Of a stretch of DNA of 39,506 bases, positions 27,058 through 29,666 are shown piece after piece. This DNA comes from an uncultured Pseudomonadota bacterium (GTDB lineage: Bacteria; Pseudomonadota; Gammaproteobacteria; Methylococcales; Methylomonadaceae), in NCBI GenBank assembly GCA_903918375.1, contig CAIXED010000039.1:1-39506 (forward strand). The letters run 5' to 3'. The stretch's first letter is position 1. Every line of letters begins with the position of its first letter. The position numbers were made by a program, and so were the translations under genes. The notes under the pieces were generated by a model. The model worked only from the letters and a program-made list of their open reading frames with translations, did no database searches and was not told the DNA's origin.

Positions 27058-27603
27058 ATGGCTCAAAATGCAGAAAACCTGATCTGGATTGATTTGGAAA
27101 TGACCGGATTAATTCCCGATACTGATTTGATTATTGAAATTGCTACGGTGATTACCGATAAAAATCTCAATATTCTGGCGCAAGGGCCTGTGTTGGCGGT
27201 GCATCAATCTGATACAGCTTTAGCGGCCATGGACGAATGGAATCAAACCCATCATGGGCAATCGGGCTTGATTGAACGAGTGAAAGCTTCAACCATCAGC
27301 GACGCCGAAGCCGAGCGTCAAACCATCGAATTTTTACAACAATGGGTGCCAGCCAATACCTCGCCAATGTGTGGCAATAGCATTGGTCAAGATCGTCGCT
27401 TTTTGTACCGTTACATGCCGCAATTAGAAGCTTATTTTCATTACCGCAATCTCGATGTTTCCACCGTCAAAGAGTTGGCGGCACGTTGGGCGCCGCAAGT
27501 GAAAGACAGCTTCACCAAGCAAACCGCTCACCAAGCGTTGGAAGACATCATCGAATCGATTGATGAGCTAAAGCATTATCGCCAACACTTTTTTAAATTC
27601 TAA
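27058..27603 (+). CDS. orn: Oligoribonuclease
   Basis: Orn degrades 2-5 nt RNA to mononucleotides, including pGpG from c-di-GMP turnover. The 181-aa protein is a DEDDh exonuclease: D12 and E14 (WIDLEMTG), D112 ([10 protein letters not shown]), H158 and D163 (AHQALED). The length equals the E. coli protein. Its stop overlaps the next start as TAATG, coupling the fluoride channel to it. Confidence 0.97.
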
Positions 27604-28310
27604 TGCTACAAATTTTGGCGGTTGCTCTCGGCGGTGCGGTTGGCTCGGTTTTAAGGTATTTAACTTCCAATGGCGTCTACTTGTGGCTGGGGCGTGGTTT
27701 TCCTTACGGTACGTTAACCGTCAATTTGATTGGTTCGTTTTTAATGGGCTTGATGGTCGAAACCCTGATTTTGCAACGCATCGCCATTGCCGCCGAATAC
27801 CGTAGCGCGATTTTGGTTGGCATTTTTGGCGGTTTTACCACGTTCTCGTCGTTTTCTTTGGATACCTTATATCTATTGGAACAAGGGCAAATCGGTAAAG
27901 CCGGTTTAAATATTGCGGTTAGCGTGTTCGGCTGTTTATTGACGGTTTGGTTAGGTTTGCTGGCTGGCCGTGGTTTGTTGGTGTATGGACAAGGCGCAGT
28001 GCGAATTTTTGACTGGCCATTTCCTTATGCTTTAACCATCATCAATGGCATTGGGGCGTTTTTGATTGGCCTTGTTGCTACGGTGTTAATGCACAAATTG
28101 GCGATTGCCATTGAGCATAGAGCGATTTTGATAACGGTGTTATGCGGGATATTTATCACCTTATCCGGTTTATATTTGATTCTTTACTTGTTAGAAAGCG
28201 GCCATGCTTTTGAAACCCATTTAAGCGCGATGTTGATAGTGTTTATCAGCAATATCGCTGTATGCGGCGCGACTTTGTGGTTGGGCTTATGGCTGGGCAA
28301 ACAGGTTTAG
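27603..28310 (+). CDS. crcB: Fused double CrcB/Fluc fluoride channel with degenerate second half
   Basis: Normal CrcB is about 125 aa with four helices and works as an antiparallel dimer that exports fluoride. Here residues 1-125 form a complete domain: GGAVGSVLRY, GRGFPYGTLTVNLIGSFLMG with N41, and GIFGGFTTFSSFSLDTLYLL with the Phe box (F81, F84). Residues 138-233 are a second copy starting directly at the TM2 equivalent: FPYALTIINGIGAFLIG (N148 aligned with N41). Its Phe box is lost: GIFITLSGLYLILYLLE has Leu, Thr or Gly where F81 and F84 should be. The TM1 equivalent is absent, and the 20-residue linker has no helix, so seven helices are expected. The fusion is seen; a single-pore, internally antiparallel monomer is inferred. 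It is translationally coupled to orn. Confidence 0.9.
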   Translation: MLQILAVALGGAVGSVLRYLTSNGVYLWLGRGFPYGTLTVNLIGSFLMGLMVETLILQRIAIAAEYRSAILVGIFGGFTTFSSFSLDTLYLLEQGQIGKAGLNIAVSVFGCLLTVWLGLLAGRGLLVYGQGAVRIFDWPFPYALTIINGIGAFLIGLVATVLMHKLAIAIEHRAILITVLCGIFITLSGLYLILYLLESGHAFETHLSAMLIVFISNIAVCGATLWLGLWLGKQV

Positions 28311-28346: not shown

Positions 28347-29666
28347 ATGTTAGACCCTCGTTTATTTAGAAGCGAACTCGAATTGGTGCAACAACAGTTG
28401 AAAAGACGCGGTATCAATTTTGATGCCCATCTTTATTTGGAGTTGGAAAAGCAACGAAAAGAGATTCAAGTTGAAACCCAAAATTTGCAAAATGAGCGGA
28501 ATACTCTTTCAAAAGCTATAGGCCGAGCAAAGCATCAATCTAAAGCACCAGCAAATGCAATGGAGCTTTCTACTACTACTGATGATGATACAAGTATTAA
28601 TGAACAAATCGAATATCTTGGAAAACTTGGAAAGTCACTTAAAGAGGCTGATAGTAAATTAGATAGCATTCAAAATAACTTAAATACCTTAATGGAAGGC
28701 ATTCCAAACATTTTGGACGAAGCAGTACCCGCTGGAAAAAGCGAAGACGATAACGTTGAAGTCAGTCGTTGGGGTGATATTCGCAGCTTCGACTTTACGC
28801 CAAAAGATCACGTTGATTTAGGCGAGCCGCTGGGTATGAATTTTGAGCTAGGCGCGAAAATCGCCAGCGCCCGTTTTGTGGTGTTATCCGGCAAATTGGC
28901 CACCCTACAACGGGCGATTATCCAGTTGATGTTAGACACTCACATCAATCAACACGGCTATTCAGAAACCTATGTGCCGTTTTTGGCTAATGCTGACAGC
29001 TTGCGCGGCACCGGCCAATTGCCAAAGTTTGAAGCCGATTTGTTCACCGTACAAAACGACCCCACTTTTTATCTGATTCCAACTGCCGAAGTGCCGGTAA
29101 CTAACATCGTTCGCGATGTCATCGTCGATGCTAAACAAATGCCGTTGAAATACGTTTGCCACTCGCCTTGTTTCCGTAGCGAAGCCGGTGCTTATGGTAG
29201 TGACGTGCGTGGCATGATTCGTCAGCATCAGTTTGAAAAAGTCGAATTAGTACAAATTGTCACTCCAGAACAATCAGCGCAAGCCCATGAAGAATTAACC
29301 GCTCATGCTGAAAACATTTTGAAATTGTTGAATCTGCCTTATCGCAAAGTGTTGTTGTGCGCTGGCGATACCGGATTCTCATCGTCTAAAACTTACGACT
29401 TAGAAGTTTGGTTACCAGGACAGCAAAAATACCGTGAGATTTCTTCATGCAGTAATTTCAAAGACTTCCAAGCCCGTCGCTTGCAAGCCCGTTGGCGTAA
29501 CCCAGAAACCGGCAAGCCAGAATTGGTGCATACCTTAAATGGCTCTGGTTTAGCGGCTGGTCGTACCTTGATTGCTGTGTTGGAAAACTATCAAAATCAA
29601 GATGGCTCAATCACTGTGCCAGAAGCATTACGTCCTTACATGGGCGGCTTAGAAACCATTCAATAA
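28347..29666 (+). CDS. serS: Seryl-tRNA synthetase
   Basis: It charges tRNA-Ser (and tRNA-Sec) with serine. The 439-aa chain is about ten residues longer than E. coli SerRS (430). The N-terminal two-helix coiled-coil arm covers residues 28-115. The class II motifs are intact: [27 protein letters not shown] (motif 2) and [20 protein letters not shown] (motif 3). The arm between about 28500 and 28720 uses unusual codons (ATA, CTT, AGT, ACT, GCA) and contains an extra polar stretch ([11 protein letters not shown]), unlike the rest of the gene. An AGGACGG ribosome site supports the start. Confidence 0.96.

Follow-up and report, generated by a model that had tools for sequence, protein, structure and literature searches.

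A seven-span CrcB fusion of Methylococcales whose second half is predicted to be inverted and lacks the fluoride-pore phenylalanine pair

The window analysed here, a stretch of 39,506 nucleotides from an uncultured member of the Methylococcales, an order of methane consumers, contains at 27603-28310 (+) an open reading frame for a 235-residue chain made of two CrcB-derived domains, D1 and D2. The question raised by this locus is how a fluoride channel can be formed by a chain whose second domain lacks a helix and both pore phenylalanines. The ATG of crcB overlaps the stop codon of the upstream exonuclease gene, which we take to be orn, and serS starts 36 bases past the end of crcB (Table 1).

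Table 1. Features of the fused crcB gene and its neighbours (positions in the window)
Feature	Position	Strand	Evidence
RNase_T exonuclease, oligoribonuclease-like, upstream neighbour	27058..27603	+	Pfam PF00929, 9.2e-36
D1, complete CrcB/Fluc domain, residues 1-125, TM1-TM4	27603..27977	+	Pfam CRCB, 4.3e-27, profile 1-103 of 103; Foldseek
N41, pore Asn of D1	27723..27725	+	kept in 148/148 fused relatives
F81-S82-S83-F84, two pore Phe of D1	27843..27854	+	F at both positions in 148/148, 0 parsimony changes each
Junction, residues 126-137, without separate transmembrane helix	27978..28013	+	AlphaFold2 model; motif of relatives
D2, CrcB domain without TM1, residues 138-235 (TM2'-TM4') and stop	28014..28310	+	Pfam CRCB, 6.6e-6, profile 24-102, below cut-off
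N148, aligned to N41	28044..28046	+	98/148; 82/95 in the first set
L187-S188-G189-L190, site of the lost D2 Phe pair	28161..28172	+	F187 in 19/148, F190 in 9/148, both in 0/148
serS, seryl-tRNA synthetase, downstream neighbour	28347..29666	+	Pfam PF00587 and PF02403

The Pfam CRCB profile (PF02537) covers the whole chain in two stretches with 110.1 bits (8.1e-32; cut-off 32.9). An initial annotation of this DNA had placed a complete Fluc domain at residues 1-125, and D1 alone indeed matches the full profile (positions 1-103, 94.9 bits, 4.3e-27), so that a score above the cut-off coincides with a four-helix domain. The C-terminal 106 residues alone reach 26.8 bits (6.6e-6), short of the cut-off, and their match runs from profile position 24 to 102, as expected of the annotated second CrcB copy without helix 1. 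No unrelated family fits this half better, the Pfam runner-up being TcpE with an E-value of 1. In NCBIfam, the whole chain and the isolated second half share one CrcB model as their top match, and the best 14 rows for the second half alone are all CrcB models, every one below its cut-off. The pore set T37, N41, F81, F84 and D87 is present in D1, and D2 retains just the asparagine. The alignment agrees with the annotation in making N148 the counterpart of N41 and in the loss of the phenylalanine box from D2, since F81 and F84, anchored by a flanking T-x-S motif, align to L187 and L190.

The fusion is not an accident of assembly, because 136 of 151 genomes of the window's family (f1) match the window's CrcB, in most cases with a single open frame that spans almost the entire query, and the Methylococcales and their relatives yielded 148 distinct fused proteins. 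Order-wide, a match was found in 117/121 genomes. The sample comprised 16 related loci (57-99% identity; Methylomonas, other Methylococcales and uncultured proteobacteria), 30 further loci (L017-L046), 60 further stretches from among the f1 matches and stretches of 60 of the 77 further genomes of the order; once identical rows and L092, L098 and L109 had been taken out, there were 158 distinct proteins, 148 fused, for which a long open frame was the condition of entry, and 10 not fused. The fusion is present in families f1-f6, and the eight members examined of f7 and f8 (of 18 and 2) carry a standalone CrcB of about 124 residues. At the standalone loci L190 and L192 the gene order is mtnA-crcB-DUF190-serS, mtnA and serS being named by likeness. 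In a tree of both halves, restricted to TM2-TM4 and built by a quick method from few columns, the second halves included (24 of the 148) all lie on one side of a branch with a support of 93. This grouping suggests a single origin, and the fusion probably arose once.

The topology of the chain was approached with two AlphaFold2 models of single chains, which were used for helix positions only and not for contacts between D1 and D2. The first reached a pLDDT of 63 and a pTM of 0.44; the second, obtained after five single-domain rows had been added, reached 73.1 and 0.52. Both place helices at residues 2-29 and 36/37-57, a broken TM3, and further helices at 97-129/130, 142-165, 170-198 and 203-234, and neither has a helix between about 131 and 141. 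In the better model TM4 ends at residue 130, and pLDDT falls below 50 at 128-136. No TM1' helix is thus predicted within residues 122-138, where TM4 runs to 130 and is followed by non-helical chain to about 141. Hydropathy averaged over the 148 fused relatives and smoothed rises to seven main peaks and dips at 130-136. TM3 of D1 is broken as in Fluc, and TM3' is unbroken in both models, at modest confidence. When the better model was compared with the PDB by Foldseek, ranks 1-31 were all Fluc chains (E 1.2e-3 to 1.2e-2, TM-score by target up to 0.77), each aligned over about 125 columns, which fits D1. Because TM4 ends on the N-terminal side, no span precedes TM2' and the spans total seven, D2 must be oriented opposite to D1 in the predicted fold, a deduction from the span count and not something seen in coordinates. 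The annotated inversion without a linker helix is upheld by these seven spans and by the lack of TM1' from both the models and the hydropathy. The junction of one group of relatives has the sequence YPWLGHGFPYG, which resembles the TM1-TM2 loop of D1 (YAWLGRGFPHG). From this likeness of motifs, D2 seems to begin right after the missing TM1, and the junction seems to hold the TM1-TM2 loop of the second copy; a strict WLGxGF-like pattern occurs at the junction in 14/148.

The consequences for conduction depend on the phenylalanines. Each Fluc pore is described as combining Phe80 from one domain with Phe83 from its partner, and mutants in which both phenylalanines of one domain were replaced are said to have been impossible to test (PMC4969038). 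Work on Fluc-Ec2 reports that Leu, Ile and Ala are inactive at F80 and F83, that Ser is also inactive at F80, that F80M was the sole working replacement among those tried, and that the pore asparagine is needed (PMC5636608). FEX retains F96 and F330, with the losses split between its domains (PMC5417652); from FEX consensus motifs we deduce that the lost partners are M99 and I327. Among the 148 fused proteins, both phenylalanines are found in every D1 and in no D2, and the full set T37/N41/F81/F84/[DE]87/N103 is present in 147 of the first domains. As each pore takes one phenylalanine from each domain, a D2 without both spoils both D1-D2 pores. The initial annotation had assumed one degenerate pore; this finds no support, as both D1-D2 pores of the window miss a phenylalanine and leucine is inactive at either site in Fluc-Ec2. 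Pore 1 (F84 with F187) is complete in 19/148 proteins, pore 2 (F81 with F190) in 9/148 and either one in 28/148 (13/95 in the first set, made up of the window's family and named loci), leaving 120/148, the window among them, with no full pair in either. Some members thus have a complete intramolecular pore, since F187 recurs in 19 proteins, carriers in the outlying families f2, f3, f5 and f6 included. In the other 129 residue 187 is Leu, Ala, Gly, Val, Ser, Cys or Ile; Met was never seen.

By parsimony, on a tree made by a quick method with 54 of 155 inner branches open, F81 changes 0 times against 35 for residue 187, and F84 0 times against 13 for residue 190, although the alignment at 187 and 190 may be wrong where the second halves have diverged most. 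The same comparison of D1 with its D2 counterpart gives 0 against 33 for T37, 8 against 37 for E87 and 1 against 39 for N103, and at least 13 changes between phenylalanine and other residues at 187. As a control, six adjacent CrcB gene pairs, presumed heterodimers (two from one genus, and with the STFSSF of one L215 chain read by eye), all keep one antiparallel pore with both phenylalanines. By these residue counts, conservation tracks the domain and not the pore. Together with the control pairs and the splitting of losses in FEX, the phenylalanine conservation in the fused family follows the pattern expected if D1 paired with D1.

The second domain is nevertheless more than a relic, since selection on it is strong. 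Over 78 pairs of relatives (dS 0.2-1.2; pairs not independent and none including the window), median dN/dS was 0.050 for D1 and 0.114 for D2, with D2 higher in 75/78 pairs. For the window itself, the one close pairing is that with L001, where D2 has a value of about 0.04 from very few changes. Mean identity among the fused rows is 63% in D1 and 33% in D2. These substitution rates indicate that D2 is maintained by purifying selection in the relatives, more loosely than D1. What D2 conserves are G156, G182, S188, G228, L190 and Y191, and not the fluoride-handling residues; the vestibule serine is present in 124/148, and N217 in 127/148, a position where D1 mostly has Ser.

Two genomes of the order carry a D2 that is cut or absent. 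In G171 (L148) a protein of 160 residues consists of D1 and one more hydrophobic stretch, followed by serS (by likeness) on a contig of 4.4 Mb, and in G197 (L150) a protein of 133 residues consists of D1 only, followed by a DUF190 gene and serS (by likeness). Both proteins keep the phenylalanine pair in D1 and are the sole CrcB match of their genome; in the tree both are placed within f4, on long branches with modest support (86 for G171, not starred). With D1 intact and D2 cut or absent, D1 apparently does without D2 in these two genomes. Further apparent losses of D2, in G121 and G080, were due to contig ends.

The physiological setting suggests that the fused gene should work. A single CrcB match was found in the window's genome, which is 99.79% complete, and a search of it for CLC gave no match. 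No fluoride riboswitch was found in the window, and a search of 121 genomes of the order with stricter filters gave three at E 0.001, one of them over the cut-off, with the window's genome absent from these. The crcB fusion is therefore the only fluoride exporter recognised by these searches in this genome. With a sole CrcB and no CLC, a dead intramolecular channel is unlikely to be the whole story. As a separate observation, a genome of the window's family that is 100% complete (L213, G010) gave no match to the window's CrcB; a fluoride riboswitch that scores 46.5 bits lies there upstream of a gene for a Na/H exchanger, perhaps a replacement route.

The explanation we favour, at about even chances, is that two oppositely inserted chains pair through their first domains as the channel, D2 being a non-conducting inverted companion. 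The conducting unit would consist of two D1 domains, contributed by separate fused chains and arranged antiparallel, with two normal Fluc pores; the chains would insert in opposite orientations, and D2 would be a three-helix companion packed against D1 or next to it, serving assembly, stability or insertion. The pairing, the dual insertion and the role of D2 are what we infer. The invariance of F81 (148/148) is what a need for pairing of D1 with D1 would produce, and a reading with a single conducting pore leaves it unexplained. For the pairing of first domains speak the conservation of phenylalanine by domain, the control pairs, G171 and G197, the low charge bias and the sole CrcB; against it, the tethered D2 retains CrcB glycines, the vestibule serine and N217, as though it still packed in the manner of a Fluc half, and could then occupy the dimer surface of D1; D2 is also selected with no proven task, and the recurrence of F187 gives some members a complete intramolecular pore.

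Insertion in both orientations is compatible with the charges. With R18 left out, the net Lys/Arg bias of the seven-span chain, counted within loop limits set by the analyst's choice, averages -0.95 in the 148 relatives and lies within ±2 in 140 of them, close to zero as expected of a dual-topology protein; counting the invariant R18, the mean is -1.95 (sd 1.38). By part, the bias is +1.07 for D1 and -2.02 for D2, which retains charges in its TM2'-TM3' loop as D1 has them between TM2 and TM3, but on the opposite face. For comparison, a table in a review lists 0 for CrcB, -2 for EmrE and +7, +6, -6 and -7 for fixed antiparallel partners (PMC3962082). Nothing was seen in the Lys/Arg counts that would lock the chain in one orientation, and from these charge counts alone we infer that the chain may insert both ways.

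A rather unlikely alternative, though the best of the rivals, is that D1 forms an antiparallel pseudo-dimer with its own inverted D2 as in FEX, so that a non-canonical pore 1 conducts and pore 2 is dead. In this reading, pore 1 would consist of TM2, TM4 and F84 of D1 with residue 187 replacing the partner phenylalanine, and the loss of TM1 would stand in for the linker helix. This reading stays alive because D2 is tethered beside D1, inverted by the seven spans, because it keeps the structural CrcB residues G156, G182, S188 and G228 under selection in relatives, and because F187 occurs in 19/148, outlying families included; all other tracked residues of pore 1 sit in D1. However, residue 187 is not phenylalanine in 129/148 and has changed 35 times when every residue type is counted; in Ec2 a Leu, Ile, Ala or Ser in place of F80 gives no activity, and the working Met is not seen at 187. 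F81 never changes, although this reading would turn it towards the dead pore; one genome has a truncated D2 and another has none, each with an intact D1; and TM3' is unbroken in both AlphaFold2 models, at modest confidence. It is improbable that D2 is a functionless, decaying by-product of tandem duplication and deletion beside an ordinary D1 homodimer: its identity of 33% against 63% for D1, its strong degeneration and its truncation or absence in some lineages would fit, but the median D2 dN/dS of 0.114 over the 78 pairs and its rarely changing positions, of which L190 and Y191 are particular to D2, do not, and the absence of stops from the 148 rows is no evidence, because long open frames were required for entry. 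Least probable of all is a regulatory or partner-binding D2, for instance for the DUF190 protein encoded nearby, for which its conserved positions unlike those of D1 and the DUF190 gene near crcB in many genomes of the order would speak, but DUF190 accompanies standalone CrcB too, and D2 is present with no DUF190 match both in the window's genome and in the eight genomes of its genus with the most similar fused protein.

A DUF190 (PII-like) match is present somewhere in 70/121 genomes of the order, and many Methylococcales have the gene near crcB, fused and standalone alike; none was found in the window's genome or in those eight genomes (77-80% identity), all of which carry D2. The idea that D2 replaces the DUF190 gene, hinted at by G197 and the standalone families, was discarded, as a DUF190 gene persists next to crcB in many genomes with the fusion.

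The origin of inverted repeats in transporters is attributed to the fusion of domains with an odd number of spans. To our knowledge, even-span dual-topology domains are not considered able to give rise easily to such repeats by duplication and fusion. The four-span dual-topology EmrE has been called evolutionarily frustrated (PMC3962082), and the gain of a helix by FEX is said to have taken 'evolutionary gymnastics' (PMC3755343). D1 of the window resembles the homodimeric Fluc-Bpe and Fluc-Ec2 in fold, pore residues and Pfam and NCBIfam models, whereas the window's chain of 235 residues adds a second domain without TM1 and the phenylalanines. FEX also has two CrcB domains per chain with the second half inverted, but its architecture is 4+1+4 with a linker helix, and the window's is 4+3 without one. 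FEX splits its losses and keeps one pore whole; in the fused family D2 never has both phenylalanines and D1 always does. Of the features that define FEX, the inverted second half is shared, as judged from the seven spans, whereas two complete domains with a linker helix, and one pore with both phenylalanines (none in the window; 28/148 in the family), are not. The annotation had called the fusion an independent solution to the FEX problem; the different structural route, through loss of TM1, stands, but the chain is probably not a second FEX, since its D1-D2 pores lack the phenylalanine pair. The heterodimeric pairs La1/La2 and Sa1/Sa2 likewise have unequal antiparallel halves with partial phenylalanine loss, but they are separate full-length genes, and the adjacent pairs of the control keep an intact phenylalanine pair in 6/6 cases against 28/148 in the fusions. 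Engineered La1-La2 and Ec2 concatemers are also forced antiparallel tandems, but they are man-made, with an added glycophorin helix and both domains complete.

The fusion thus provides a natural case in which the loss of a helix yields inversion, in most sampled families of one order, and its steps can be reconstructed, as the order also holds standalone CrcB, one truncated and one missing D2. It separates two things that are joined in FEX, the inversion of a half and the keeping of a pore in the inverted pair. That the whole picture is right, with an even-span domain fused through helix loss into a 4+3 dual-topology chain that conducts through paired D1 domains and carries inverted, pore-dead but selected halves, is a tentative proposal with rather less than an even chance; if true, an architecture of four domains of this kind would be without precedent in ion channels.

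Whole genomes were sampled within the window's phylum. In a class sample, 221/274 genomes match the window's CrcB, and among the matches listed only the window and another member of the order align beyond residue 145, in a search that would miss fast-evolving second halves. In a phylum sample, PF02537 was found in 268/299 genomes; the window's genome gives two hits, as expected of a fusion, and 18 other genomes give two or more. Long open frames in G544, G657 and G625 had suggested natural 4+4 fusions and proved to be adjacent separate genes. No bacterial 4+3 CrcB fusion was found in the literature searched, which included passages of a 2024 review (PMC11139923) and lay mostly outside subscription papers. 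The variant of Fluc is real and conserved, and no earlier report was found, which does not establish its absence from print. Two scans of a viral collection gave few rows, all single-domain CrcB where translated; the contigs concerned (L198-L205) are possibly host flanks or contamination, and in L198 the open reading frame after crcB looks DUF190-like by eye. In four genomes of family f6 (L112, L113, L116, L119) two convergent fused crcB paralogues, one more diverged from the query than the other, have a DUF190 match between them. G065:C73, G100:C5 and G089:C29 (L195-L197) are second CrcB-like copies broken by in-frame stops, in genomes that have an open fused copy as well, and in G114 (L098/L194) D1 and D2 lie in two overlapping frames, through either a sequencing error or a real split of the gene.
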